From positions 1 through 63,733 of the IMG/VR virus record IMGVR_UViG_3300032722_000019: DNA of 63,733 bases. One strand, given 5' to 3'. Below are positions 31,430-63,733 of the stretch, piece after piece. A model generated the notes under the pieces. It did no database searches. It saw only the letters and a list, made by a program, of their open reading frames with translations, and was not told where the DNA came from. The DNA comes from a virus. How positions within the stretch are numbered: the first letter of the stretch is position 1; each line of letters begins with the position of its first letter. The translations under genes and the position numbers were made by a program.

Positions 31430-32089
31430 ATGTCTGGATTTTCTTTCATCGACCTGTTCGCCGGCATCGGGAGCCTCCGCAGGGGCTTCGAGGGTGCCGG
31501 CGGCCGCTGCGTCTACACCTCGGAGTGGAACCCCAAGTCCCAGCAGACCTACAGGGCTAACTTCCCGCACGACGGGCACGGCATCGACGGCGACATCACC
31601 AAGGTGGACGCCGCTGCCGTGCCCGACCACGACGTGCTCCTGGCGGGCTTCTTCTGCCAGCCGTTCTCCATCGCGGGGGTCTCCGCCCGGAACAGCCTGG
31701 GCAGGGCCCACGGCTTCGCCTGCGAGGCGCAGGGCACCCTCTTCTTCGACGTGGCCCGCATTCTCAGGGAGAAGAGGCCCGCCGCGTTCCTGCTCGAGAA
31801 CGTCCGCAACCTTGTGTCCCACGACGGGGGTAACACGTTCCGCGTCATCCGCGGCGTCCTCGAGGAGGAGCTCGGCTACCGCGTCAGCTGGCGCGTCATC
31901 AACTCGCGGTCGTGGGTCCCCCAGAGCCGCAACCGGGTCTTCATCGCGGGCTTCAGGGACCACGGCCACTTCTCCCTAGGCACCCTGCTGGCGCCGCGTC
32001 CCGCACGCCGACCGCCGGGCGTTCTACAAGGCCGCCCGGGAGGGCACCAATGCCGAGTATCGGGCCGCGATGGAGAACGTCCTGACTAA
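31430..32089 (+). CDS. Cytosine-C5 DNA methyltransferase, shortened and frame-broken
   Basis: Motif [20 protein letters not shown], motif IV with C76 but FCQ instead of PCQ ([12 protein letters not shown]), motif VI ENVRNL at 123 and motif [16 protein letters not shown] at 165 identify the family. After residue 180 the frame loses sense; the natural continuation ([15 protein letters not shown] to KSFEAR, TGA 32108) lies one frame over. Even when joined, the protein is about 230 residues, with no target-recognition domain or motif IX/X, against 300 or more usually. It may be inactive, a partner-dependent enzyme, or the result of an indel. The next gene starts on that TGA (TGATG). Confidence 0.72.
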
Positions 32090-33517: not shown

Positions 33518-35350
33518 TTGGAAATCCAGCTAAAGAAAGACTTCGTGGCCTCCCTGGCGCAGGCCGTGAACGCCACCCACCCAGTCCTCTGCAAGCACCT
33601 GCTCAGCAGGATCAACCGCTACGGCGAGGAGAGCCTGACGCTCGACACCAACCGTCTGGAGGAGCTCGACGAGGGCCTGACCCCGGCGGCCCTGGAAGAC
33701 CTGGTGTACGAGCACGCTCGGGCCGTCAAGGCCCAGGGCGTCATGATGTACATCGGCTCCATCCGACTGGTGCTCAAGGACGTCAAGAGGTCCAAGCCGG
33801 GCAGCCTGGCGGCCCTGCAGGCCGCGCTCCGTGTCTACTTCCTGGAGGACGCGCTGGACGGCTGGCTGTACAAGGAGTGCGGCGACAAGTTTCTCCCCTT
33901 CGTGATCAACGGCGTCTACCTCAAGCTGCACACCACGAGGGAGAAGAGCGAGGGGGCCAAGGACTACGTGCGCCTCAGTTTCGTGGCGCACTCCACTGCG
34001 GGCACCGCCAGGAGCTACCGCAACACGTGCAGCCGGCGGGACGACTACGGCTCAGAGTACGACAGCGTCTCCTGGGAGTGGGGCGACTTCAACAAGAAGA
34101 CGGTCCCCGACCTGCTGGCCGAGAAGGGCCTCTTCCACGAGAGGCCCGAGCTCAAGGCGGACTACCTCCGCCAGCTGGCCCTGTTCGACGCCTATCGCCC
34201 CAGGTTCGGCGAGCAGTTCGTGGGCGTGTCGGGCTCCCTGGAGATGGAGTTCGACCCCGATGACAACTCCGAGTACAGGAGTCGGCGCAACCGAGAGCTC
34301 GTGTCGGAGGCCTGCTACATCAACGACGACGGCAGCGTCGAGCGCGCCGAGATGGCCGAGGAGCGCGAGAACACCCACTGGGTAGAGACCACCGGGCTCG
34401 CCGAGGACAGCCCTCTGTTCCGGCGCATCCCGGTCCACCCCTACCTGCGCATGTTCAACCTGGGCACCCACGCGTTCGCCTTCAAGCACGTGGACGACGT
34501 GAGGCCCTACGTCTACCGCGAGGACATGGCCGACAAGATCGTACTACCGGAGGCCCACCGCGACCTCATCGAAGTGCTGACCACCGACTTCGACGCGGTC
34601 CTCGGGGGCGATGTAGTAGAGGGCAAGGGCACTGGGGCCTGCATCCTCTGCAAGGGCCAGGCGGGCCTAGGCAAGACCCTGACCGCCGAGATCTCCTCCG
34701 AGGTCAGCAGGAAGCCCCTCTACAAGGTGCACTCCGGTCAGCTGGGCACCGACGCCCAGGAGGTCGAGAAGACGCTCAAGGTCATCTTCGGCCGGGCCGA
34801 GCGGTGGGGGTGCATCCTCCTGCTCGACGAGGCGGACGTGTACATCCGCCGCCGGGGCGACGACCTGGACCACAACGCCGTGGTGGCAGCCTTCCTGCGC
34901 ACCATGGAGTACTTCGGCGGCACGTTCTTCATGACCACTAACCGGGCCGACGACGTCGACGACGCGATCGAGAGCCGCTGCGTGGCCATCATCCTCTACG
35001 AAATGCCGAGCGCCAGGGAGCTCCGCCGCATCTTCGAGATCCAGTCCGAGAGCTGGGGGGCCGAGCTGTCCGAGAGCGACCTCGAAAAGCTGGTCAGCTA
35101 CTACGACGGCAGCTGTCGGGACGCGACGTCGGCCAGCTGGTCAAGCTGGCAACTCGCTACGCCGCGGCGCGGAAGATCCGAGTGGACAGCGAGGTCATCC
35201 GCAAGCTGGCCCAGTTCAAGGGGTTCTGAGGCATGGACATCAAGACCCTCCCCGAGCTCATCGCCTGCGTCCGGCAGGCCGTCGACGACATGCCCTCCCG
35301 GGTCGGGGAGGCCGTCCTCATGGTCTGCGACGCCGTCGAGAACACCATGA
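33518..35350 (+). CDS. AAA+ ATPase with a shifted C-terminal frame
   Basis: TTG start at 33518 with AGGAGAA 7 bases before it. The N-terminal 330 residues are a large unrecognised domain. The AAA+ domain has Walker A GQAGLGKT (380-387), Walker B LLLDEAD (434-440), sensor 1 MTTNR (472-476) and an arginine finger candidate R487. After residue about 530 the zero frame becomes Ser/Arg-rich nonsense to 35350. A -1 step at about 35107 gives RQLSGRDVGQLVKLATRYAA, a normal AAA+ lid/sensor 2, ending at TGA 35229, four bases before the next gene. The true gene is probably 33518-35229 with a sequencing indel, or a frameshift. Confidence 0.7.
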   Translation: MEIQLKKDFVASLAQAVNATHPVLCKHLLSRINRYGEESLTLDTNRLEELDEGLTPAALEDLVYEHARAVKAQGVMMYIGSIRLVLKDVKRSKPGSLAALQAALRVYFLEDALDGWLYKECGDKFLPFVINGVYLKLHTTREKSEGAKDYVRLSFVAHSTAGTARSYRNTCSRRDDYGSEYDSVSWEWGDFNKKTVPDLLAEKGLFHERPELKADYLRQLALFDAYRPRFGEQFVGVSGSLEMEFDPDDNSEYRSRRNRELVSEACYINDDGSVERAEMAEERENTHWVETTGLAEDSPLFRRIPVHPYLRMFNLGTHAFAFKHVDDVRPYVYREDMADKIVLPEAHRDLIEVLTTDFDAVLGGDVVEGKGTGACILCKGQAGLGKTLTAEISSEVSRKPLYKVHSGQLGTDAQEVEKTLKVIFGRAERWGCILLLDEADVYIRRRGDDLDHNAVVAAFLRTMEYFGGTFFMTTNRADDVDDAIESRCVAIILYEMPSARELRRIFEIQSESWGAELSESDLEKLVSYYDGSCRDATSASWSSWQLATPRRGRSEWTARSSASWPSSRGSEAWTSRPSPSSSPASGRPSTTCPPGSGRPSSWSATPSRTP

Positions 35351-35556
35351 AGAAAGAGGTCCCCACCCAGGGGCCTCCTCCTTTCGAGACGGGGGACGTC
35401 GTCCGCGTCAGGGGCATACCCACCGCCCCGCTCATGTCGGTCTCTTCCTGCCAGCTGCACTCCCAGCACGGCTGGCTAGTGCCGGTCTGCTGGTTCGTGG
35501 AGGACCACGAGGCCACTTCCACATTCCTGGCGGGGCAGCTGGAGAAGGTCAGGTGA
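35233..35556 (+). CDS. Hypothetical protein
   Basis: The product has 107 residues. Helical start (LPELIACVRQAVDDMPSRVG) and beta-rich end with FETGDVVRVRGIP, QHGWLVPVCWFVEDH. The gene starts 3 bases after the corrected AAA+ stop, which supports that correction. Not recognised. Confidence 0.5.
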   Translation: MDIKTLPELIACVRQAVDDMPSRVGEAVLMVCDAVENTMKKEVPTQGPPPFETGDVVRVRGIPTAPLMSVSSCQLHSQHGWLVPVCWFVEDHEATSTFLAGQLEKVR

Positions 35557-36475: not shown

Positions 36476-36696
36476 CCCACGGCTTCAAGACGCGCCGGGG
36501 GGTCAAGACCTGCGACCCCTGCGGCCGGGACGAGGAGGGCCGCTGCGCGTCCTCCGGGACGACCCAGCCGGCCTGCTCGGACGCGCGCTGCCCCTGGAAA
36601 GACCCGGACGGCACGCCCGAGGCCATGAGTGCCCGCGTCGCGGAGCTCGAGAGCAGGTTCAACGTCTTCGGCTACGGTCCGGGGATCTGGCGATGA
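36472..36696 (+). CDS. Small Cys-rich protein
   Basis: The product has 74 residues with a GTG start at 36472 overlapping the previous stop. Four to five Cys are arranged as TCDPCGRDEEGRCASS and ACSDARCPW, a possible zinc-binding knuckle. The C-terminal helix is short. Not recognised. Confidence 0.5.
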   Translation: MTHGFKTRRGVKTCDPCGRDEEGRCASSGTTQPACSDARCPWKDPDGTPEAMSARVAELESRFNVFGYGPGIWR

Positions 36697-37655
36697 CCTG
36701 GGAGGAAGAGGCCAAGAGGCTGACCCCCTGGGAGGAGCGCGGGGGCGTGCTGTTCAAGCGCGAGGACCTGTTCGCGCCGCTGTGCAAGAACGGCCCCAAC
36801 GGGGCCAAGTTCCGCCAGCTGCTGCACCTGTTCGCGCGCCACCGGGGCAACGCCACCCACGTGATGACCGCGGCCAGCGTGCTCTCGCCGCAGCACAGCA
36901 TGACAGCGGCGGTGGCCCACCACTACGGGCTGCCGAGTCTCCACATCATCGGGGCCACCACGCCCGAGAAGGCGGTGGCCAACCACGTCAACGTCCGGGT
37001 GGCCTCCCGCTTCGGGGCCAAGTTCGAGGCGATCAAGGTGGCGTACAACCCGGAGCTCCAGAGGGCACTGGAGCGCCGCCGCCGGCCCGACAGCTTCGTG
37101 GTGCCCTACGGCATCACCACCGCCCCTGACTGCTCGGAGGAGGACCTGAGGGCCTTCCACGAGGTGGGCGGGGTCCAGGTCAAGAACCTGCCCGAGCAGG
37201 TGGAGACACTGATCGTCCCGGCGGGCAGCTGCAACACTCTCACCAGCGTGATCTACGGACTGGTCCGGCACGGCCACGGGAACCTCCGGGAGCTCGTATC
37301 CGTCGGCATCGGGCCCGACAAGGTGGCCTGGGTCCAGGAGCGCCTGACCCGGCTGGGCGTGCGGCCACCGCTGCCCTTCAAGTGGAACCGCCGAGTGTCC
37401 CTGCACGAGAGTGGGTTCGCGGCCTACGGGGACCGGATGCCGGAAGAGTACTACGGCCTGCAAGGGCACCCTACTTATGAGGGAAAAATCCTTCGCTGGA
37501 TGAAGAGGCACGGCGTCCTCCCTCCCCGCGACAAGGGCCTGGGCTTCTGGATCGTGGCCGGCGAGATGAGCGAGAAGGCCGTGGAGAAGAAGTACCCGGT
37601 CGAGGGCCTCAACGACAGCATCAAGGACCTGTTCAGCGTGCAGTTAGCACCATAA
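36693..37655 (+). CDS. PLP-dependent enzyme, fold type II (ACC deaminase/TrpB-like)
   Basis: The product has 320 residues. VLFKREDLFAPLCKNGPNGAK with K39 fits the Lys that holds PLP in fold type II enzymes, followed by RQLLHLFARH. SVLSPQHSMTAAVAHHYGL is the substrate-loop helix (compare SNH in ACC deaminase), and PAGSCNTLTSVIYGL at 176-190 is the phosphate-binding loop in a degenerate form. It overlaps the previous gene by 4 bases and starts the base-modification cluster. In known thymidine-hypermodifying phages PLP enzymes cleave or decarboxylate amino acids already attached to DNA; the same role is inferred here. The alternative is ordinary amino acid metabolism. Confidence 0.75.
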   Translation: MTWEEEAKRLTPWEERGGVLFKREDLFAPLCKNGPNGAKFRQLLHLFARHRGNATHVMTAASVLSPQHSMTAAVAHHYGLPSLHIIGATTPEKAVANHVNVRVASRFGAKFEAIKVAYNPELQRALERRRRPDSFVVPYGITTAPDCSEEDLRAFHEVGGVQVKNLPEQVETLIVPAGSCNTLTSVIYGLVRHGHGNLRELVSVGIGPDKVAWVQERLTRLGVRPPLPFKWNRRVSLHESGFAAYGDRMPEEYYGLQGHPTYEGKILRWMKRHGVLPPRDKGLGFWIVAGEMSEKAVEKKYPVEGLNDSIKDLFSVQLAP

Positions 37656-37665
37656 GGAGAGAACT

Positions 37666-38043
37666 ATGAAGAAGAAACTCTTGATCGGTCTCGCGCTCCT
37701 CGCCCTAGTGGGGTGCGACCGCGATGCCGACGTGGCCCAGAAGAACCTAGCCCAGGACGCAGACAACTTCAAGATCCCCAGGCGCATCGCCTTCATCAAC
37801 GGGATCACGGACAAGTACCTCCTGGAGATCACGGGCTTCTGCGCGTTCAAGGCCTCCGATGAGACCAAGAACGTGCTCAACGTCATCTGCAAGGTCGACG
37901 GAGGCTACAAGAAGCACTCCATCGGCCTCTCGGACAACGTGACGTTCGTGAGCGAGCAGCTGGCCCCGCGGGACGTCAGCACCTCGCTCTACCACGTGAC
38001 GTTCAAGCCGGCCACGCTGGTCCCCGACGTCGAGCTGCGGTAG
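37666..38043 (+). CDS. Lipoprotein (beta-sandwich type)
   Basis: The product has 125 residues. Signal peptide KKKLLIGLALLALVGC with a lipobox (LVGC, Cys17), then beta-rich domain (IAFINGITDKYLLEITGFCA, NVICKVDGGYKKHSIGLSDN). It resembles the beta-sandwich lipoproteins found in other tailed phages. Outer- or inner-membrane anchored in the infected cell; superinfection exclusion is a reasonable guess. A good ribosome site (AAGGAGAG) precedes it. Confidence 0.65.
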   Translation: MKKKLLIGLALLALVGCDRDADVAQKNLAQDADNFKIPRRIAFINGITDKYLLEITGFCAFKASDETKNVLNVICKVDGGYKKHSIGLSDNVTFVSEQLAPRDVSTSLYHVTFKPATLVPDVELR

Positions 38044-38051
38044 GCGCGCAG

Positions 38052-38327
38052 ATGAAGGCCGGTACGCACGTCCGCACGCCCGACGGCCGCGAGTGGACGG
38101 TCGTCTACCACGGTCCCGACGGCTACGGGGTCGTGGAGGGACGCCGGACCCTGACCGAGGACGAGCTCAGGAACATACACCTGGGCGGCCCGTTCTCCAG
38201 GGAGGCACTGGCTGAGGCCGTCAAGGCTACCCACATGCTGCGGGACTCCGTCTCGCCGACCATGGACGAGCGCATGTGGCCCGGAATGACGCTGATCGGC
38301 GAAGAGTTCGAGAGGATCGCGGAATGA
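38052..38327 (+). CDS. Hypothetical protein
   Basis: The product has 91 residues. N-terminal beta part (THVRTPDGREWTVVYHGPDG) and a helical rest. Its stop overlaps the start of the next gene (ATGA). Not recognised, though embedded between base-modification genes. Confidence 0.45.
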   Translation: MKAGTHVRTPDGREWTVVYHGPDGYGVVEGRRTLTEDELRNIHLGGPFSREALAEAVKATHMLRDSVSPTMDERMWPGMTLIGEEFERIAE

Positions 38328-39343
38328 AGGACTACCGCACCCCCGAGCACCGCGGCGAGTACTTCGCCGCGCTCTACGAGACCAACCTCCGGCACGGCAC
38401 CATGCCGGGGCTCGTCTACCTCTACATGCCGGCGCTGGCGCACGCCCTGGGCTGGGACGAAAAGACCAAGCTGTGGTTCGCGTTCCTCAACGGGATGACG
38501 CAGAACCCGCTGACTAGCCTGCGCCTTCTCGAGCAGCTGCCCGAGCCGCCCGAGAACAAGATAGCCCTAGCGGTCTTCAAGCAGTGGTTCGACGCGGAGT
38601 GGCCCCGACTTCAATACGACACCGATCGGCGCTACGCCAAGAAGGAGACCTGCGAGGCCATCAAGAGCTACTGCTGGGCGGCGGCCGCTTTCGGAGACTC
38701 TCAGACGACTCCCCAGGTCGACATGCTGAGCCTTAGGTCTTGGGAGGCCATTTGGGGCTTCGTGACTTCCTCCTTCCGCAGCTTCGGCCGGCTCTCGGCC
38801 TTCAGCTACCTGGAGTACGTGCGAATCATGGGCCACGGCTGCGAGCCCGATACCCTACTATTCTCCGACAAGTCGGGCAGCAAGAGCCACCGCAACGGCA
38901 TGCTGTTCCTGACAGGCCTGGACGAGCTGGTGAACGACAAGCGGACCGGCCGGGGCCCCGTGGCCTACGAGAACTTCGGCAAGATGTGTGTATGGCTCCA
39001 AGAACGCGCCGACATCTGGCAGGCCGCCTTCAACGAGATGGAGGCGCGGAAGGGCTCGACGCTGCGGGCCACCAACTTCACCTTCGAGAGCCAGCTGTGC
39101 CAGTTCAAAAACTCCTTCTTCGGCCGGCGCTACCCCGGGGTCTACGCAGACATGGCCTGGGAGCGCCTCCAGTGGTACAAGACCAACGTGGGGCAGGACA
39201 GGAACTGCCGCCTGATCGCCGACATCTACCACTCCCTGCCCGACTGGCTCCAGTACGGAAATGACCGCTTGACCGTCAGGCAGAGAGCGGCTATATTCCC
39301 CCGCACGGGCGTGCCCTACCGAGCAGAGCACTTCCTAGAATAG
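38324..39343 (+). CDS. Amino acid:DNA transferase-like protein (aGPT-Pplase group)
   Basis: The product has 339 residues, ATG 38324 overlapping the previous stop. Wholly helical, with LYETNLRHGTMPGLVYLYMP, WFAFLNGMTQNPLTSLRLLE and FSYLEYVRIMGHGCEPDTLL. This recalls the helical proteins from phages with hypermodified thymine that transfer an amino acid onto phosphorylated 5-hydroxymethyl-deoxyuridine in DNA (named alpha-glutamyl/putrescinyl thymine pyrophosphorylases or amino acid:DNA transferases). The call rests on recall of these patterns plus the neighbours (kinase, second helical protein, thymidylate-synthase-family enzyme). Confidence 0.65.
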   Translation: MKDYRTPEHRGEYFAALYETNLRHGTMPGLVYLYMPALAHALGWDEKTKLWFAFLNGMTQNPLTSLRLLEQLPEPPENKIALAVFKQWFDAEWPRLQYDTDRRYAKKETCEAIKSYCWAAAAFGDSQTTPQVDMLSLRSWEAIWGFVTSSFRSFGRLSAFSYLEYVRIMGHGCEPDTLLFSDKSGSKSHRNGMLFLTGLDELVNDKRTGRGPVAYENFGKMCVWLQERADIWQAAFNEMEARKGSTLRATNFTFESQLCQFKNSFFGRRYPGVYADMAWERLQWYKTNVGQDRNCRLIADIYHSLPDWLQYGNDRLTVRQRAAIFPRTGVPYRAEHFLE

Positions 39344-39356
39344 CGAGATAGCACTC

Positions 39357-39896
39357 ATGGAAATCTACACCCAGGCCCTCATATTCGCGGTCCGCGCCCA
39401 CGGGGACCAGAAGCGCAAGTACACCAACGATCCCTACGTCGTCCACCCCATCCGCGTGGCCGAGATACTGCGGGAGGCGAAGGCCCCAGAGGTCATAGTC
39501 TCCGCCGCGCTCCTGCACGACACGGTGGAGGACACGAAGACGACTTACCAGGACCTCGTCATGGAGTTCGGTCCGGCCATGGCAGACCTCGTCATGGAGG
39601 TCACGGACCCCAGCCGGCCCGAGGACGGCAACCGCGCCGCGCGCAAGGCCATCGACAGGGAGCACCTGGCCCGGGCCAGCGTGTACGGGAAGACCATCAA
39701 GCTGGCGGACCTCATCGACAACACCGCCAGCATCGTGAGGTACGACCCCGACTTCGCCAGGGTCTACCTCGCCGAGAAGAGGCTACTCCTGCAGGAGGCG
39801 CTGAGGCCCGTCGGGGCGTTCCATGACTGGCAGAGTGTCCACGGCAGGCTCTACGCGAAGGCACTGGCCCAGATGGAGACTCTATGCCTAAGCTGA
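39357..39896 (+). CDS. HD-domain hydrolase resembling small alarmone hydrolases
   Basis: The product has 179 residues. KYTNDPYVVHPIRVAEIL with H30, then SAALLHDTVEDT with HD 54-55 and ED 58-59, and IKLADLIDNTASI further on, are the HD and ED motifs of the SpoT/MESH1 (p)ppGpp hydrolase family. Length matches stand-alone small alarmone hydrolases. It overlaps the kinase gene by 13 bases. It may remove host (p)ppGpp to keep nucleotide synthesis and transcription active, or act on a modified nucleotide of this pathway. ATAGCA precedes the ATG. Confidence 0.75.
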   Translation: MEIYTQALIFAVRAHGDQKRKYTNDPYVVHPIRVAEILREAKAPEVIVSAALLHDTVEDTKTTYQDLVMEFGPAMADLVMEVTDPSRPEDGNRAARKAIDREHLARASVYGKTIKLADLIDNTASIVRYDPDFARVYLAEKRLLLQEALRPVGAFHDWQSVHGRLYAKALAQMETLCLS

Positions 39897-40468
39897 TCAT
39901 CAACCTGCGCGGCACGTCCGGCTCCGGCAAGACCACGGTGGTCCGCCGGCTCATGGGGCTGGGCGAGGTCGAGAATATGAGGACAACCGACGGGAAGATC
40001 GCAGGGGTTCGCCTAGAGGTTCCACGCTGGAGCCACGCCGTGTTCTTCATCGGCAAGTACGACAGCGTCTGCGGCGGGATGGACACCGTGCCCACGCAGG
40101 CCGACTGCTCCACCCTGATCCATCGGGCATACGATCATGGCCACGTAGTCTGCGAGGGCCTGCTAGCCTCCGGGGTCGGGCCCAAGGCTACCCTGCCCGC
40201 GGCGTGCATCGCGGCGGCCGGCCCCAACGCCTGGTTCCTCTGCCTGGACACGCCGCTAGAGGTTTGCATCGAGCGCGTCAAGCAGCGCCGGGCCGCCCGG
40301 GGCGACGACCGCCCGTTCAACCCGGCCAACACCCAGGCCAAGTGGGAGCAGACGCGCCGGGCCTACGAGCTCCTGGAGGAGGGCGGAGCCAACGTGCGCT
40401 GGCTGCCCTACGAGACGGCCTACGAGAAGGTCCGCGCCATTCTGGAGAAGGTTGATGCCGCGGACTGA
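39884..40468 (+). CDS. P-loop kinase, 5-hmdU DNA kinase-like
   Basis: The product has 194 residues. Walker A RGTSGSGKTT (9-18) and the family-like block FIGKYDSVCGGMDTVPTQ (55-72), followed by VVCEGLLASG and a lid-like ERVKQRRAARGDDRPF. The YxxxCGGxDTxxTQ block is what I associate with phage kinases that phosphorylate 5-hydroxymethyl-deoxyuridine in DNA as the first step of thymidine hypermodification. The neighbours are consistent. Polynucleotide kinase or deoxynucleotide kinase is the alternative. Confidence 0.75.
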   Translation: MPKLIINLRGTSGSGKTTVVRRLMGLGEVENMRTTDGKIAGVRLEVPRWSHAVFFIGKYDSVCGGMDTVPTQADCSTLIHRAYDHGHVVCEGLLASGVGPKATLPAACIAAAGPNAWFLCLDTPLEVCIERVKQRRAARGDDRPFNPANTQAKWEQTRRAYELLEEGGANVRWLPYETAYEKVRAILEKVDAAD

Positions 40469-40739
40469 ACCGAGCCTCTGGAAGGCCAAGCACAGGGTCT
40501 CTAAAGAGGACGACGGTCGGGCCTTGACCTACTTCTGCGACGACAAGCGCCACCTGGTGTGCCAGCCGTATAGCCTGGAGAACCTCCACGTCATGGCCCA
40601 GCGCCTCGGCCTCAAGCGCCACTGGTTCCACAGGGACCACTACGACATCCCGGTCAAGCGCCGGGCTGAGATCGAGAACCTGTGCATCCACCTGACGGCG
40701 CGGGACATCGTGCGCATCTGCCGGGGAGGCAAGGAGTGA
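40455..40739 (+). CDS. DUF4031-like protein
   Basis: The product has 94 residues from ATG 40455; a TTG one codon earlier is possible. YSLENLHVMAQRLGLKRHWF, HYDIPVKRRAEIENL matches the DUF4031 pattern (H..L...A..LGL.R.WF..HYDI...R). DUF4031 proteins are of unknown function and often lie in phage nucleotide-metabolism regions. Overlaps the kinase end by 14 bases and the next gene by 4. Confidence 0.65.
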   Translation: MPRTEPSLWKAKHRVSKEDDGRALTYFCDDKRHLVCQPYSLENLHVMAQRLGLKRHWFHRDHYDIPVKRRAEIENLCIHLTARDIVRICRGGKE

Positions 40740-41611
40740 GCAGCGACCTGCGCGGCCTGGTGGCGTTCGTCCGGGAACGGGAAACGATTCGCTTGAAGAG
40801 GCACCTCGGAGAGCTCGCGCCCTGGACGGACGACCCGATCCTGGCCAAGTACCGTTTCTGCAACGTGAGGCGCGGAGACGACCGAGTCTCGCAATGGCTG
40901 CTGAAGAAGTACTACCCGAGGTTTGATCCTCGGGGAGACCTCTGGTTCGCGGCCGCCGTGGCACGCCTGATCAATTGGCCGCCGACCCTGGCGTGGCTCA
41001 TGGAGAGGTCCGTGACCTGCGACATGGTCGACGCCTACGATGCCCATGACTTCTCCAGAGAACTCGAGAAGTACCACCATGAGAACCCCGGCAAGACTTA
41101 CACCGGGGCATACATGCTCTACGCCGGGGGCAGGCAGGCGCGGTTCAAGGGGATGGCCAAGGCCGACTTCATCGCGCACCACCTGCTCGCGGGGCTGACC
41201 GTCAGCCGCGACATAATCAGGCTGGCCGTCTCGAGCAGGAGCGTGGAGGCCACCGTGACGGCGCTCCAGCACTCCTTCGGTATAAGCTCGTTCATGGCGG
41301 GTCAGGTCGCGGCTGACCTGACCTACCTTCCTCTCCAGCTGGGTCAGGCTCGAGATCTCTACACCTGGGCCCCCCGCGGCCCTGGGTCCTTGCGCGGCCT
41401 CAACCGCCTCCACGGTCGGCCGCTGAACAACCAGTGGGACCAGGACCACTTCAACGATGCGTTGAAAAAGGTTAACTGGGCAATTGGCCCCGGCTTGGGC
41501 CTCACCCTGCACGACGTCCAGAACGTCCTGTGCGAGTGGGACAAGTACGAGAGGGTGCGGCTCGGGCAGGGCGTGCCCCGGTCGCAGTACAGGCCCGAGA
41601 CGGCATATTAA
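40736..41611 (+). CDS. Helical base-hypermodification protein (5-hmdU kinase helical domain / aGPT-Pplase-like)
   Basis: The product has 291 residues with GTG at 40736 overlapping the previous stop. Residues 28-50 read APWTDDPILAKYRFCNVRRG and DDR, a hallmark pattern of the helical proteins linked to thymidine hypermodification (often annotated as putative DNA base hypermodification proteins). SSFMAGQVAADLTYLPLQLG and LNNQWDQDHFNDAL follow in the helix-hairpin-like C-terminal half. It may be the second transferase or a kinase partner. An essential neighbour, the synthase, begins 23 bases on. Confidence 0.72.
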   Translation: MSSDLRGLVAFVRERETIRLKRHLGELAPWTDDPILAKYRFCNVRRGDDRVSQWLLKKYYPRFDPRGDLWFAAAVARLINWPPTLAWLMERSVTCDMVDAYDAHDFSRELEKYHHENPGKTYTGAYMLYAGGRQARFKGMAKADFIAHHLLAGLTVSRDIIRLAVSSRSVEATVTALQHSFGISSFMAGQVAADLTYLPLQLGQARDLYTWAPRGPGSLRGLNRLHGRPLNNQWDQDHFNDALKKVNWAIGPGLGLTLHDVQNVLCEWDKYERVRLGQGVPRSQYRPETAY

Positions 41612-41633
41612 GCAGCCAGGAGAGGAGAAGAAG

Positions 41634-42650
41634 ATGACCTACGCACTGACGGCCCGCAACCCCAACGAGGCGTTCCCCATGACCGTGAGGATGCTGAGGG
41701 ACCACGGGGTGCGGCTGCCGAGCCGCAACGGCGACTGCCTGGAGTTCCCGGACGTGGTCAGCGTGACCTTCACGCATCCCCTGGAGCGGGTGCTGACCAA
41801 TCCGCTGCGCCGGATCAACCCGTTCCTGCACTTCTTCGAGCCTCTGTGGATCCTCGCCGGCCGGCGCGACGTCGGCTTCCTCGCGCAGTTTGCCAAGAAC
41901 ATGACGAACTACAGCGATGATGGCGAGAATTTTGCCGCGGCCTACGGTCACCGGATCAGGCACGTGCCCTCTTCTTATGAGGGAGACCCAGACATCGATC
42001 AGATTTACGAGGCCGTAGTTCGTCTGAAGGCGGACCCGGATGACCGCCGCGTGGTTCTCATGATCCGACAGCCTCTAGACATCGGCTACACCGGCAAAGA
42101 CGCGGCCTGCAACATCGCGGCCAGCCTGAAGATCCGCGGCGGCCGGCTCAACATGCACGTCATGAACCGCAGCAACGACGCGGTCTGGGGCGGCCCGGCC
42201 GGCGGAACCAACCACCCGCAGTTCACTGTCCTGCTGGAGTTCATGGCCGGGATGATCGGCTGCGAGGTGGGGCGCTACACGATCACCACCGACAGCATGC
42301 ACGCCTACGTCAACCCCCAGTGGGAGAAACTGAGGGACACGCCGGCCTACGCAGACCCCTACCAGTCGGCCTCCCACGACTACCGACCGTTCCCCATGAT
42401 GGAAGAGCCCGTCCTCTTCTGCACGGACCTGACGGCCTTCTTCGAGACGTACGACGACGGCCGTATGCGCCCCTACTCCAGCGTCTACTTCCGCCGGGTG
42501 GTCCTGCCCATGTGGGAGACCTTCCTCTCCTACAAGGCGCGCGACGGCCGGGAGCGCGAGCTCCTGGAGAGGGTGGCGGCCGCGGACTGGCAGGACGCCG
42601 TCAGCCAGTGGTTCGACGGCATCGAGCGCCTCCAGAGGCCCTTCTCGTGA
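41634..42650 (+). CDS. Thymidylate synthase family enzyme, probable dUMP hydroxymethylase
   Basis: The product has 338 residues. Catalytic Cys159 in KDAACNIAASLKIRGGRLNM, the phosphate-binding NRSNDAVWG at 178-186, N193 in GTNHPQFTVLLEFM, and TDSMHAYV near 220 are the family landmarks. Asn at the position that chooses dUMP over dCMP argues for a uracil substrate. Sequence around Cys (AACN instead of PPCH) resembles phage hydroxymethylases more than host ThyA. In context, it should make 5-hydroxymethyl-dUMP, the precursor for thymine replacement. Plain thymidylate synthesis cannot be excluded. Strong ribosome site GGAGAGGAG. Confidence 0.8.
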   Translation: MTYALTARNPNEAFPMTVRMLRDHGVRLPSRNGDCLEFPDVVSVTFTHPLERVLTNPLRRINPFLHFFEPLWILAGRRDVGFLAQFAKNMTNYSDDGENFAAAYGHRIRHVPSSYEGDPDIDQIYEAVVRLKADPDDRRVVLMIRQPLDIGYTGKDAACNIAASLKIRGGRLNMHVMNRSNDAVWGGPAGGTNHPQFTVLLEFMAGMIGCEVGRYTITTDSMHAYVNPQWEKLRDTPAYADPYQSASHDYRPFPMMEEPVLFCTDLTAFFETYDDGRMRPYSSVYFRRVVLPMWETFLSYKARDGRERELLERVAAADWQDAVSQWFDGIERLQRPFS

Positions 42651-43186
42651 GTGTCCTGCGGGCGGTGTCCTGGGCCTACCGCAAGGCCCGGACGCTGCGC
42701 TTTCACACTCACTTCTGCACCCGGCAGGAGACCATCGGCCACCACTCCCACGGCGTGGCGGTCATCGTGTCCCTGGTCTACCCGGACGCCAGCGCCGACC
42801 TGCTCAGGGCCGCGGTCCTGCACGACCTGGGAGAGGGCGAGTGGGGCGACATGCCGGGCCACACCAAGCGCGAGCTCGGCATCCGGGAGGCCGTAGCCGT
42901 CCTGGAGGAGCGAGAGATGCGCAGGAACGGCGTGGAGATGCCGACGCTGAACGCCGAAGAGCACCGCAGGCTCAAGTTCGCCGACAACGCCCACGGCGCG
43001 CTCTTCTCCATGGAGGAGCTCTCTAGGGGCAACCGGGAGCTCCTGGGGCCCTTCCGCAACTACGTGGAGTGGATGGAGAAAGAGCCGATGCACCTGCTAG
43101 GCGAGCAGGAGCTCTTCGAGATGATCAGGCGACGGTTCTTCAGGCATTCTACCGAAGGTGTGAGAGATGAAGTCTTCGAGTTCTGA
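42647..43186 (+). CDS. HD-domain nucleotide phosphohydrolase (YfbR-like)
   Basis: The product has 179 residues with GTG at 42647 overlapping the synthase stop. HHSHGVAVI (H32/H35), AAVLHDLGEGEWGDMPGHTK (H59, D60, E63, D68) and a later Asp in KFADNAHG are the HD set of 5'-deoxynucleotidases. Coupled translation with the hydroxymethylase suggests removal of a competing nucleotide such as dTMP, so that the modified nucleotide enters DNA. Established: family activity on dNMPs or dNTPs. Inferred: dTMP or dTTP as substrate. Confidence 0.7.
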   Translation: MSVLRAVSWAYRKARTLRFHTHFCTRQETIGHHSHGVAVIVSLVYPDASADLLRAAVLHDLGEGEWGDMPGHTKRELGIREAVAVLEEREMRRNGVEMPTLNAEEHRRLKFADNAHGALFSMEELSRGNRELLGPFRNYVEWMEKEPMHLLGEQELFEMIRRRFFRHSTEGVRDEVFEF

Positions 43187-43427
43187 GGCGGACAAGCGCC
43201 AGGTCGGCGGCGGCCATTACAAGGACGTCCCCGAGCACCTCCAGCACTGGAACGTGGTCGCGGCCCTGGGCTGGGATTATTTCATCGGCACGGCCACCAA
43301 GTACATCTGGCGGGCCGGCAAGAAGGACGACCCCGTCCAGGAGCTCGAGAAAGCGGTGCACTACCTCCAGAAGAAGATCGAGCTCCTCAGGGCCGAGCGC
43401 GCGGCCGCGGAGAAGCAAGTTGGCTGA
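43167..43427 (+). CDS. DUF3310-like protein
   Basis: The product has 86 residues. GGGHYKDVPEHLQHWNVVAA, then GTATKYIWRAGKKDDPVQEL and EKAVHYLQKKIELL match the DUF3310 pattern (HY....E.I......F..G.A.KYI.RAG.K....DL.KA..YL). Common in phages beside DNA metabolism genes; function unknown. Overlaps both neighbours. Confidence 0.75.
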   Translation: MKSSSSEADKRQVGGGHYKDVPEHLQHWNVVAALGWDYFIGTATKYIWRAGKKDDPVQELEKAVHYLQKKIELLRAERAAAEKQVG

Positions 43428-45366
43428 CGGAGAGGTCGCCTTTTTAGACACGGAGAGCTACGCCAACGCGGCGCTCTTCATGTGCCAGACCGAGGGCGGC
43501 CGCCTGTTCAAGGCCTGGGTGGAGGGCCCGAACGGTCCGGCGGCGGACTACGTCCGGGCGGTCATGGCCTCGGGCTACACGTTCGTGACCTTCAACGGCA
43601 TCAACTACGACATGCCGGTGGTCAGCGCCATGATCGACGGCCGGGGCCCGCACGAGATCAAGCACCTCTCCAACCGCATCATCGAGGGCGGCCTGATGCC
43701 CTGGGAGGCCGCCGACGAGTTTCGCCTGCCGCCAAACCTGGCGGGCGTGGACCACATCGACCTCATCGGGGTCAGGCCGCCCAACGCCGGCCTCAAGATG
43801 GCCGCGGCCCGGATGGGCTCCCCGCACCTGGAGGAGAACCCTATCGACCACCGCTCGGAAATCGCCCCGGCGCAGTACCCCGGCGCCGAGCGGTACTGCA
43901 TGAGCGACCTCCGCAACACCCGGATGCTGTTCGGCCGCTGCGAGCAGCCGCTCCTGCTGCGCTGCCAGATGAGCCGCGAGTACGGCGTGGACCTGCGGAG
44001 CAAGAGCGACGCCCAGGTCGCCGAGCAGGTGTTCGTCAAGAAACTGGGCCTCAAGAGGAAGTGGGGCGAGAACGCCCGCATACCTCCGGTGGTGCGCTAC
44101 CGCGCGCCGGCCTGGGCCCAAAGTTTCCAGAGCCCGGGCCTGCGCGCGCTGGTGGCGCGGCTGGAGGACACGATCTTCCACGTCCACCAGGGCAGCGGCC
44201 ACGTGGCCATGCCCTCCTGGCTGGAGGCGGCCTCCCCGGAGTCGCGCCTGACCTCCCGGACCGGCGTCTTCCAGATGGGCGTGGGCGGCCTGCACAGCAC
44301 CCACGACAAGAAGGTCTGCCACGTCGCCGGGCCGGACTGGCGCGTCACGGACGTGGACTGGGACTCCTACTACCCCACGCTGATCGTCAACGCCGACCCC
44401 GAGATACTGCCGCCCCACCTGGGCGAGGCGTTCATCACCGAGTACGACAACATTCGGCGCATCCGCCTGGAGGCCAAGCGGGTCAAGGACGTCTCCAAGG
44501 CCGACAGCCTGCGCATCGCGGTCAACGGCACCTTCGGCAAGCTGATGTCGCGCTGGTCGCCGCTGTACGCCCCGGGCCTGGGCCTGTACACTACCCTGAC
44601 CGGGCAGCTGGGGCTGCTGGGCGCGGTCTACGAGGTCCTGGAGCCCGCCGGCTGCTCCATACTGAGCGCCAACACCGACGGCATCGTCATCGGGCACCCG
44701 GCGGGGGTGGACGCCGCGGCGCTGATGGCGGAGTACGCCGCGGTCATGAGCGAGGGCGGCCGCGCGCCCTACGGCGTGGAGGCCACCTCCTACCGCACCA
44801 TCGCGATGAAGGACGTCAACAACTACATCGCGGTCAAGGCCAAGGATCGCTCGGTCAAGGCCAAGGGGCTGTACGCCCCGCTGGACAAGATGATGAAGAA
44901 CCCCACCCTGCCGGTCTGCTCGGAGGCGGTGGGCAAGTGGCTGGCCCACGGCGTCCCCTTCGAGAGGACGCTGGCCGAGGCCCACCAGCGGCGCTACCTG
45001 CCCGACTGGCTGGCCGCGCGGCGCGTCAACGGCGGGGGCGTCCAGGGAGAGAAGACGGTGGGCAGCCTGGTCCGCTGGTACTTATCAACCGACCCCGGAC
45101 TTCCGCCCTTGACTTATGCGCTGAATGGCAATAGAGTACCCAAGACCGAGGGCGTCAGGGCCTGCATGATCTTCGATCCTGCGGCCCCGTTGCCGGCGGA
45201 CCTAGACACTCTAGCATATAACAAGGAATGCATCAGGATAGCCAAGGACCTGGGCTGCTCCCAGTACCTGTCAGAGGAACAGCTGGCACTCGTCGCGCCG
45301 CCCCCGAAGGCCGGCCGCAAGAGGAAGGCCGTCACCGAGTCCCCAGAGAAGGAAGCGTCAGCATGA
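43420..45366 (+). CDS. Family B DNA polymerase with 3'-5' exonuclease
   Basis: The product has 648 residues with a TTG start. Exonuclease: FLDTE (D10, E12), VTFNGINYD (59-64), YCMSD (Y159, D163). Polymerase: motif A VDWDSYYPTL (D313), motif B RIAVNGTFGKL (365-375) and motif C SANTDGIVI (D420). Motif B has Arg in place of the usual Lys and motif C has NTDG in place of DTDS, although the key second Asp is kept. The C-terminal 80 residues are an extra region with a basic end. It is a compact, protein-independent type polymerase; no terminal protein was recognised. It may be adapted to a modified template. Confidence 0.85.
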   Translation: MADGEVAFLDTESYANAALFMCQTEGGRLFKAWVEGPNGPAADYVRAVMASGYTFVTFNGINYDMPVVSAMIDGRGPHEIKHLSNRIIEGGLMPWEAADEFRLPPNLAGVDHIDLIGVRPPNAGLKMAAARMGSPHLEENPIDHRSEIAPAQYPGAERYCMSDLRNTRMLFGRCEQPLLLRCQMSREYGVDLRSKSDAQVAEQVFVKKLGLKRKWGENARIPPVVRYRAPAWAQSFQSPGLRALVARLEDTIFHVHQGSGHVAMPSWLEAASPESRLTSRTGVFQMGVGGLHSTHDKKVCHVAGPDWRVTDVDWDSYYPTLIVNADPEILPPHLGEAFITEYDNIRRIRLEAKRVKDVSKADSLRIAVNGTFGKLMSRWSPLYAPGLGLYTTLTGQLGLLGAVYEVLEPAGCSILSANTDGIVIGHPAGVDAAALMAEYAAVMSEGGRAPYGVEATSYRTIAMKDVNNYIAVKAKDRSVKAKGLYAPLDKMMKNPTLPVCSEAVGKWLAHGVPFERTLAEAHQRRYLPDWLAARRVNGGGVQGEKTVGSLVRWYLSTDPGLPPLTYALNGNRVPKTEGVRACMIFDPAAPLPADLDTLAYNKECIRIAKDLGCSQYLSEEQLALVAPPPKAGRKRKAVTESPEKEASA

Positions 45367-45725
45367 AGGAATCAACGTCTCCCGCCCAGGCCGGCGCGAG
45401 CCTCGCCGAGGGACCCCGCGTGTGGGTGGTCTACGCCGACCGGCGCAAGGACATGACCACCGCCGAGAAGTACGGCCAGCTGACAGACATGTTCACCGGC
45501 CGGGTGGACTACTCCCGCGCCGTGGAGCACGCCCGCAAGATGCTGGCGCGCTACAAGCAGGGCGACCACATCCTGATCGTCGGCGACCCCGCGCTGTGCG
45601 GCATCGCCATGACGGTGGCCCTGGAGTACGCCCCGGTGGACGAGCAGGTGCTCTCCATCCTGCGCTGGGATCGCGACGAGCTGGAGTACCGGCCCGAGGT
45701 GTTCGACTTCAGCGACGACAACTAG
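45363..45725 (+). CDS. Hypothetical protein coupled to DNA polymerase
   Basis: The product has 120 residues, ATG 45363 overlapping the polymerase stop (ATGA). An alpha/beta pattern (RVWVVYADRRKDMTTAEKYG, GDHILIVGDPALCGIAMTVA) and an acidic end (EVFDFSDDN), as in accessory proteins that bind via C-terminal acidic tails. Not recognised. Confidence 0.55.
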   Translation: MKESTSPAQAGASLAEGPRVWVVYADRRKDMTTAEKYGQLTDMFTGRVDYSRAVEHARKMLARYKQGDHILIVGDPALCGIAMTVALEYAPVDEQVLSILRWDRDELEYRPEVFDFSDDN

Positions 45726-48232: not shown

Positions 48233-48625
48233 ATGAAGGAATACTTGGATCAGTGGACCCTCGGGCAATTGATCGACGCCCTGGAGGCCGTCGGCGACAA
48301 GGCGAACGCCTGCCGCTTTGACTTCTGCCACGCCGTTCCCGGAAAGCTCGACAGCTATCGGGGATACTACGAGGACCTGGCGCTGGGCTGGGAACCGCAG
48401 ACAAATTATCCAGAGCCGACCGTGGCGCACGTTCTGGACACTCTGAAGAAGCAGATCGGAACCACCGTTCACGGCTACAAGGGGGGTGACTACGTCGTCT
48501 CGCGCGATCAGACAGTCTATGTGGCCAACTACGGAGAGACTGGCTCCACCGGCATCGTCGGAGTCGACAGCACCTATACGACCGTCATCCGAACGGTCTG
48601 CACAGACCCGGCACCCGACCGATGA
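48233..48625 (+). CDS. Conserved phage protein of unknown function
   Basis: The product has 130 residues. ACRFDFCHAVPGKLDSYRGY and YEDLALGWE are patterns I recall from a conserved phage protein of unknown function. The second half is beta-rich (VYVANYGETGSTGIVGVDST). Lower G+C than its neighbours in places. Starts 1 base after the nuclease stop. Confidence 0.6.
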   Translation: MKEYLDQWTLGQLIDALEAVGDKANACRFDFCHAVPGKLDSYRGYYEDLALGWEPQTNYPEPTVAHVLDTLKKQIGTTVHGYKGGDYVVSRDQTVYVANYGETGSTGIVGVDSTYTTVIRTVCTDPAPDR

Positions 48626-49110
48626 TACCGGACGGCCGCGCCGTGATCATCGGCATGAACAACGAGGACGGCGGGGAGGCGCTCGCGCTGCACCCCGCCA
48701 CGCGCGCCGGGGCCCGATTGCTGAAGTTCTCCGGGATGACCCGCGACGAGATGATAGCGGGCTTCCAGCGAGTCAACCTCCTGTACGCCCAGTCCTGGGT
48801 CATGACGGAGGCCCGCCGCGCCGCCGACCGGCTGATGGAGCACCTGGGCGGCCGCACCTGCGTGGTGCTGGGCCGAGACGCGTGGCGCGCGCTGGGGCTC
48901 CCCCACCAGGCCAGGTTCTGGGAGCGGCACACGCACCGCTTTGTGGCCGGCTTCCCGCCGGCCGAGACCGAGGCGTGCTTCTACTCCATCCCGCACCCCT
49001 CGGGGCTGAACCACTACTACAACCGCAGAGACAACCAGAAGAAGGCCGCAGAGGTGCTCTACGACGCCCTGCGCCGCAGCAAGGAGAAGTCAGTTGTCAG
49101 CCACGCCTAG
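48622..49110 (+). CDS. Uracil-DNA glycosylase superfamily-like protein
   Basis: The product has 162 residues, ATG 48622 overlapping the previous stop. AVIIGMNNEDGGEALALHP with GARLLKFSG resembles the first motif of UDG-fold proteins, and YSIPHPSGLNHYYN fits motif 2 (H-P-S..N). The usual catalytic Asp/Asn is not clearly conserved. In a phage that may replace thymine, a UDG-fold protein could repair or read modified bases. The fold call is moderate. Confidence 0.55.
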   Translation: MIPDGRAVIIGMNNEDGGEALALHPATRAGARLLKFSGMTRDEMIAGFQRVNLLYAQSWVMTEARRAADRLMEHLGGRTCVVLGRDAWRALGLPHQARFWERHTHRFVAGFPPAETEACFYSIPHPSGLNHYYNRRDNQKKAAEVLYDALRRSKEKSVVSHA

Positions 49111-63509: not shown

Positions 63510-63733
63510 GAGGGCGGGTCCGGCAGCACGGGCGGATGGGGCGGATGATTGTTCACGGTCACCCCCTGCGTGTAGTCGTCTATGACCCAGGCCCCCGGGC
63601 CGGTCTGCGTGATGCGCATGCCGCACCCGCCCACGTCGTAGCTGAAGGACTTCGCGCCGTAGATGATCACGTTACCCTCCTTGTCGATGGCGATCCTGAC
63701 CGTGGAGCCGTTGGGGCCCGGGCCGTTCTCTCC
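63506..63733 (-). CDS. Baseplate spike V-like, C-terminal part (partial duplicate at window end)
   Basis: Bases 63733-63506 encode the last 75 or so residues of the V-like spike gene that begins at 633. The part 63539-63733 duplicates 1-195; only 63506-63538 is new (HPPVLPDPPS and stop). The one difference gives Ile in place of Thr in the EGNVTIYGA segment. Partial because the window ends here. Confidence 0.75.
   Translation of the reverse strand, partial: GENGPGPNGSTVRIAIDKEGNVIIYGAKSFSYDVGGCGMRITQTGPGAWVIDDYTQGVTVNNHPPHPPVLPDPPS
63539..63733. repeat. Terminal repeat, right copy
   Basis: Same 195 bases as 1-195 apart from A63666. It shows that the contig closes on itself. Confidence 0.93.

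Follow-up and report, generated by a model that had tools for sequence, protein, structure and literature searches.

Which hypermodified thymine, if any, would be made by the operon at 36,693-43,186 of IMG/VR virus record IMGVR_UViG_3300032722_000019? The operon lies on the + strand of a stretch of 63,733 nucleotides, which was analysed as a whole and is called the window here. An original prediction had read it as a thymidine hypermodification pathway that starts from 5-hydroxymethyldeoxyuridine (hmdU) and leads to a possibly new base. The genes are tightly packed, with neighbours spaced by -20 to +22 bases, all reading frames are intact, and the order is pyridoxal phosphate (PLP) enzyme, amino acid:DNA transferase (ADDT), kinase, helical kinase partner, thymidylate synthase (TS)-family enzyme and YfbR-like HD protein, followed by a DUF3310-type gene and a DNA polymerase. 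An hmdU-based pathway is strongly supported by the protein families, by the conserved gene order and by the structural likeness of the ADDT to a transferase whose structure is known. With regard to the final base, we consider it likely that a core of the type found in phages M6 and Pam3 and a side-chain pair of the type found in phage ViI form 5-(2-aminoethoxy)methyl-dU (5-NeOmdU) by the route that M6 and ViI share. The known base of ViI, instead of a new one, is thus the best candidate, and the amino acid involved is not a thing that a sequence can prove. The conserved features are as follows.

36693..37655, + strand: PLP enzyme, predicted fold type II, clade of ViI orf00226 (phrog_3650, homology to ViI, structural model, tree)
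38324..39343, + strand: ADDT (aGPT-Pplase2), ViI clade (PF18724, model match to 8z2m/8z2n, tree)
39884..40468, + strand: putative P-loop 5-hmdU DNA kinase with CGGMDTVPTQ (phrog_800, homology to M6 gp54 and ViI orf00067)
40736..41611, + strand: HMUDK_hel (aGPT-Pplase1), putative helical kinase partner, contains APWTDDPILAKYRFCNV, GTG start (PF18723)
41634..42650, + strand: TS-family enzyme with AACN, predicted dUMP hydroxymethylase (phrog_5131, E 4.8e-85)
42647..43186, + strand: putative YfbR-like HD 5'-deoxynucleotidase (PF12917)
43167..43427, + strand: DUF3310-type protein, conserved neighbour (phrog_5839, E 2.6e-20)
43420..45366, + strand: DNA polymerase, end of the conserved run (phrog_1252, E 3.2e-116)

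Families and gene order of the core

The proteins named in the original prediction, from the PLP enzyme to the YfbR-like HD protein, are all present on the + strand in the order proposed. The family placement on which it had leaned held fully for the helical protein (PF18723, E 1.4e-41) and in part for the kinase, which belongs to phrog_800 (E 3e-19) but stayed below the cut-off of HMUDK_HMUD1 (PF18748; E 3.3e-5, 23.9 bits, cut-off 27). The kinase is 30% identical to M6 gp54 and likewise 30% to ViI orf00067; for the helical protein, the best cultured relative among the matches listed is from Stenotrophomonas phage Bhz59 (38%), and M6 reaches 34.5%. Kinases of this type carry the label 'terminase small subunit' in several public records (M6, ViI, CN2 and PaMx11; loci L003, L012, L020 and L024) as well as in phrog_800.

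The TS-family enzyme is 38-41% identical to its homologues in M6, CN2, Pam3, PaMx11, Sonora and RHph and 30% identical to that of ViI, and the solved enzyme nearest to it by sequence is the CMP 5-hydroxymethylase 5b6d. We predict it to be a dUMP hydroxymethylase, a function that sequence alone cannot separate from that of a synthase. A Trp/Ile difference at the YGxRxR motif (Ile in the window, Leu in ViI, Trp in M6) was considered as a mark of hydroxymethylases and dropped because M6 keeps Trp. The YfbR-like HD protein matched PF12917 (E 2.5e-7; 31 bits, cut-off 25.9), and in this position, following TS, M6, CN2, Pam3 and PaMx11 likewise have an HD or YfbR-like gene. It probably clears thymine nucleotides (the dTMP/dTTP pool), by analogy with phage phi W-14, in which a dTTPase appears during infection and dTTP is removed (PMC5977210), and with pelagiphages, in which a 5'-deoxynucleotidase stands near TS and aGPT-Pplase1 (PMC9599517).

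The arrangement is widespread among uncultivated phages. From scans of viral contigs, the best 80 of 378 ADDT relatives and the best 80 of 281 PLP enzyme relatives were followed up, and 143 loci plus the window locus were sorted into 86 groups, loci being merged if the last 150 residues were identical in ADDT, PLP enzyme, kinase or helical partner; cut genes could put one phage into two groups. The loci are partial and were picked for having ADDT or PLP enzyme, so that the counts of these two are biased: ADDT occurs in 82 groups, the kinase in 78, the PLP enzyme in 77, TS in 75, the helical partner in 73, DUF3310 in 71, the YfbR-like gene in 69 and the polymerase in 66. In 50 of the 86 groups, our own included, a single fetched stretch has the whole canonical run of PLP enzyme, ADDT, kinase, helical partner, TS, YfbR-like, DUF3310, polymerase. 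Among the titles and abstracts covered by a literature search, which did not extend to a 2022 paper by Lee et al., none was found to describe this gene combination; that paper reportedly treats metagenomic permutations of these genes.

In the proposed pathway, a hypermodified thymine would be made after replication, along the route common to M6 and ViI. The TS-family enzyme would form hydroxymethyl-dUMP, the YfbR-like HD protein would drain the dTMP/dTTP pool and the phage polymerase would place hmdU into DNA. Some of this hmdU would then be phosphorylated by the P-loop kinase and its helical partner, the ADDT would put an amino acid in place of the phosphate, to be decarboxylated by the PLP enzyme. 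With serine joined by its hydroxyl, the product would be 5-NeOmdU. What the data show is enzyme families, clade membership, gene order and predicted folds for ADDT and PLP enzyme; how the reactions follow one another, which amino acid is used and which base results are inferred.

ADDT, PLP enzyme and the side chain

The ADDT matched PF18724 above the cut-off (E 4.8e-13). The fold predicted by its AlphaFold model (mean pLDDT 89.8) was compared with solved structures, and for the 5-PmdU glycinyltransferase of PaMx11 (8z2m/8z2n) Foldseek gave a probability of 1.00, yet E 0.027-0.041, and VIA-align gave Z 15.7 (250 aligned, root-mean-square deviation, rmsd, 3.9) and Z 15.6 (254 aligned, rmsd 3.7), with the next-best row at Z 9.8. 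We took matches to queuine-salvage DUF2419 and to 8-oxoguanine glycosylases (Z 7.6-9.8) to reflect no more than a common fold. By sequence, the ADDTs of the PaMx11, RHph_TM26 and Sonora branch are 13-16% identical to that of the window. In 14 named control genomes the ADDT and HMUDK_hel profiles found no match; phi W-14 matches both profiles and SP-15 neither. A member of the window's ADDT clade was also seen in Mycobacterium phage Heath (Coopervirus gp3; L021, 1,852-2,826), where it adjoins a queuine tRNA-ribosyltransferase gene and where no HMUDK_hel match was found.

The PLP enzyme belongs to phrog_3650 (E 1.4e-66) and is 30% identical to ViI orf00226 over 355 columns (E 2e-45); with PALP (PF00291) it stayed below the cut-off (E 0.0018), and in a six-frame search this profile found nothing at E 0.001. 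Lys39, which does not vary among 7 aligned proteins, is the putative Schiff-base lysine. The AlphaFold model (mean pLDDT 84), whose best Foldseek matches in the PDB are D-cysteine desulfhydrase and ACC deaminase (E 5e-12, TM-score ~0.63), supports fold type II. We predict that the enzyme decarboxylates the DNA-bound amino acid, as in ViI, whose chemistry according to Lee et al. in 2022 is said to consist of serine and decarboxylation. Sequence searches of the PDB with ADDT, helical partner and PLP enzyme gave no credible relative. No PLP enzyme with at least 60% identity was found among 50,697 phage records, and the matches listed (60 of 347 for the window's protein as query, 12 of 346 for that of an uncultivated relative) are 33-36% identical.

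Sequence comparison places ADDT and PLP enzyme of the window in the ViI clade, not in the M6 clade. In both trees the window, its uncultivated relatives, ViI, a Vibrio Ackermannvirus and Glutamicibacter phage Montesquieu are separated from the M6 type (support 100/100), and Heath joins the window/ViI side in the ADDT tree. Each tree held 24-26 rows, with environmental rows sampled by step and phi W-14 and SP-15 left out. Of the 72 residues of the PLP enzyme that are invariant in 30 relatives and the window, 55 are shared by ViI and 19 by the M6 type; of the 90 such residues of the ADDT, ViI has 42 and M6-type proteins have 15-20. The core proteins group differently: ViI and Montesquieu are split from the window and the M6 type in the TS tree (96/97), as are ViI, Montesquieu and the Vibrio phage in the tree of the helical partner (92/82). 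Because both trees have long branches (ViI, Montesquieu or PaMx11) and the TS bootstrap is unsettled, the reading of these two proteins as nearer to M6 leans also on the identities. A kinase tree was set aside, as long branches meet in it.

The second line of evidence concerns tailoring genes. The radical S-adenosylmethionine (radical-SAM) profile PF04055 had no match in the window, a test of limited reach, for the profile missed the CN2 gene and scored the radical-SAM-like M6 gp53 below its cut-off (E 1.1e-6); one match was seen elsewhere in the Vibrio Ackermannvirus record. Eleven query proteins (among them radical-SAM proteins of M6, CN2 and Pam3, M6 Nmad5, two FAD enzymes, the PaMx11 acetyltransferase, ViI orf00243, and ADDT and PLP enzyme of M6) found no match in the six frames of the window, although the same search also missed the window's ADDT and PLP enzyme with the M6 queries, so that remote tailoring enzymes could escape it. 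In the 144 loci these queries found nothing but one M6 ADDT match (L167); each found its own control, and the radical-SAM proteins of M6, CN2 and Pam3 do find each other. With an ADDT and a PLP enzyme from the ViI clade, and no radical-SAM isomerase found in these searches, 5-NeOmdU appears to be the most likely product.

Accessory genes and rival explanations

Four further genes lie between PLP enzyme and helical partner, and two of them (37,666-38,043 and 38,052-38,327) had not been part of the original prediction.

37666..38043, + strand: small lipoprotein-like protein, inserted, outside the conserved cassette (PF25682; phrog_478 'RDF')
38052..38327, + strand: 91-amino-acid protein without a family match, inserted, seen in 1 of 86 groups
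39357..39896, + strand: HD_4 hydrolase, apparently accessory (PF13328)
40455..40739, + strand: DUF4031 protein, apparently accessory (PF13223, E 3.7e-12)

The lipoprotein-like gene is a relative of the mycobacteriophage family named RDF and stands inside the cassette in one of the 86 groups, that of this phage. A DNA search of the phage collection matched 364 records, and the 20 matches listed all lie over this gene. HD_4 and DUF4031 had been counted among the pathway enzymes. We rejected both as core parts, as each was found in 1 of 86 groups; the stretches fetched for the remaining 85 showed neither, though as partial loci they leave absence elsewhere unproved. Both look accessory. The HD_4 protein (E 1e-15; 58.2 bits, cut-off 27.2), of the MESH1-like type that is annotated as RelA/SpoT-HD in other phages, has relatives in 298 phage records; our reading is a RelA/SpoT-type hydrolase that does not share in making the base. 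In phage phiKM1 its relative stands beside a HicA/HicB-like pair, and no cassette gene is annotated in the 17.6 kb shown. DUF4031 matches 15 phage records. No accessory family between PLP enzyme and polymerase is seen in more than 13 of 86 groups; the commoner neighbours stand before the PLP enzyme or after the start of the polymerase.

Several observations weigh against 5-NeOmdU or against single steps of the pathway, among them the limits of the tailoring-gene searches and the subthreshold PF18748 score given above. Identity between the ADDT and its ViI counterpart, which keeps 42 of the 90 residues invariant in the window's ADDT group, is about 26%, so the amino acid that is loaded may be another one. 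Most solved enzymes related to the PLP fold are deaminases, dehydratases or desulfhydrases. ADDT and PLP enzyme are not always paired, since 27 Mycobacterium records match the ADDT and just 3 the PLP enzyme, and the ViI kinase-like orf00243 finds no match in the window or the loci. The low ADDT identity, together with D-cysteine desulfhydrase and ACC deaminase as best solved matches, would fit a pathway of the same kind that uses another amino acid (for example threonine, cysteine or homoserine) or in which the PLP enzyme carries out an elimination; the base would then not be 5-NeOmdU and may be new. We regard this as a minority possibility, given the PLP enzyme residues shared with ViI and the near-equal PLP enzyme and ADDT record counts in Ackermannvirus hosts (Salmonella 158/162, Vibrio 61/62, Klebsiella 44/44). 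Slightly more doubtful is the specific proposal that this ADDT clade, far from the M6 type and from ViI, loads neither glycine nor serine but another amino acid, which after processing by the PLP enzyme yields an undescribed thymine base. Least credible of all is 5-(2-aminoethyl)-dU, the base of M6: it would suit TS and helical partner, which are nearer to M6-type than to ViI-type proteins, but ADDT and PLP enzyme lie outside the M6 clade and the limited searches found no radical-SAM enzyme.

Two other explanations are very improbable, even if a little less so than the M6 base. HD_4 and DUF4031 might trim the side chain, giving a novel product peculiar to this phage, in keeping with their place inside the operon, where gene ends overlap or nearly abut; yet among the partial loci they were found in one group, HD_4 relatives occur in many phage records, and no cassette gene is annotated in the stretch shown around the phiKM1 copy. 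It is also conceivable that there is no hypermodified base, the genes serving nucleotide metabolism or the cassette being decayed, in keeping with a kinase below its Pfam cut-off. Intact frames, a gene order kept in 50 of 86 groups, and ADDT and HMUDK_hel profiles that matched no control genome all argue the other way. Among these readings, 5-NeOmdU keeps the first place, and the enzyme set not being unknown, the focus therefore moves to the amino acid used by the window's ADDT clade. If that amino acid did give an undescribed base, this base would be common to a large group of uncultivated phages. Whichever base the cassette makes would help to explain the restriction resistance of environmental phages, and the cassette is short enough to be tested as a whole.

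Genome and comparison with known systems

The window ends overlap by 195 bases (1-195 and 63,539-63,733; 194 identical, one mismatch), and the genome therefore looks complete and circularly permuted, with about 63.5 kb, despite its record class as linear. The phage had been called a myovirus, and by its matches to tail sheath (phrog_205), baseplate wedge (phrog_6) and baseplate hub (phrog_196) families it is one. A scan of genome contigs gave 2 loci, both in actinobacterial metagenome-assembled genomes, which do not fix the host. No tRNA genes were found in the window by ARAGORN, and Rfam gave no match at the gathering score. The protein at 48,622-49,110 weakly resembles the uracil DNA glycosylase superfamily (PF03167; 23.3 bits, cut-off 24.3), which is of interest, since hmdU would be expected in the DNA of this phage. 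A C5-cytosine methyltransferase at 31,430-32,089 aligns with its Pfam profile over positions 1-164 of 324, roughly the first half, and looks truncated. In the AAA ATPase at 33,518-35,350 (phrog_29662), the final part resembles out-of-frame sequence and overlaps the frame 35,233-35,556, a possible frameshift.

The enzyme set had been described as unrecognised, a view that we rejected. Homologues in ViI are orf00066 (TS), orf00067 (kinase), orf00160 (helical partner), orf00226 (PLP enzyme) and orf00247 (ADDT), which we take to be the genes studied by Lee et al. in 2018. M6 encodes an ADDT (gp51), a PALP enzyme (gp52), HMUDK (gp54), HMUDK_hel (gp55), Nmad5 (gp56), TS (gp58), a YfbR-like HD protein (gp59) and a DNA polymerase (gp62), and the side-chain genes of M6 are shared by CN2 and Pam3. 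A fold-type-II PLP enzyme is found in both M6 and ViI, and a PLP enzyme is also named for the M6-like phage SN1, whose published cassette comprises hydroxymethylase, Nmad5, aGPT-Pplase1, kinase, radical-SAM enzyme, PLP enzyme and aGPT-Pplase2 (PMC9476957). The supposed novelty of two HD hydrolases likewise fell away, one following TS in four described phages and the other being the apparently accessory HD_4. Fold-type-II PLP enzymes and HD nucleotidases are therefore nothing unusual in described systems.

The more distant systems share single blocks with the window. Pseudomonas phage PaMx11, Rhizobium phage RHph_TM26 and Stenotrophomonas phage Sonora have kinase, helical partner and TS in the same order, and the PaMx11 ADDT (PUGT, 8z2m) is the best structural match, but an enzyme of the flavin adenine dinucleotide (FAD) type replaces the PLP enzyme, an acetyltransferase is present in PaMx11, and in RHph_TM26 and Sonora no YfbR-like gene is annotated after TS. 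Montesquieu, a 47.6-kb phage, has adjacent ADDT and PLP enzyme of the window's clade, the ADDT being below the reach of PF18724 at E 0.001; its helical partner and TS genes, however, stand apart and are diverged, and it has two other P-loop kinases (PF18751) and another gene order.

The closest likenesses are divided between two systems. Pseudomonas phage M6, Bordetella phage CN2 and Pseudanabaena phage Pam3 (5-NedU in M6) follow the window's order for kinase, helical partner, TS, YfbR-like/HD gene and DNA polymerase; M6 also has a DUF3310 gene before the polymerase, and the window frame 45,363-45,722, after the polymerase, matches the Pfam family Pam3_gp32. Radical-SAM-like and Nmad5 genes are theirs, with no homologues found in the window by the limited searches, and their ADDT and PLP enzyme are of the other clade. 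According to one account, ViI and CBA120 contain 5-NeOmdU (PMC11721090). ViI, a Salmonella phage of the Ackermannviridae, has ADDT and PLP enzyme of the window's clade and homologues of kinase, helical partner and TS, and like the window it lacks a radical-SAM match. Its genes are scattered over a 157-kb record, whereas those of the window form one operon; it has orf00243 in addition, and its TS and helical partner are further from the window's than are those of M6. This suggests that the ViI side-chain pair and the M6/Pam3 core are exchangeable parts, which stand together as the eight-gene run seen here and in many uncultivated phages.

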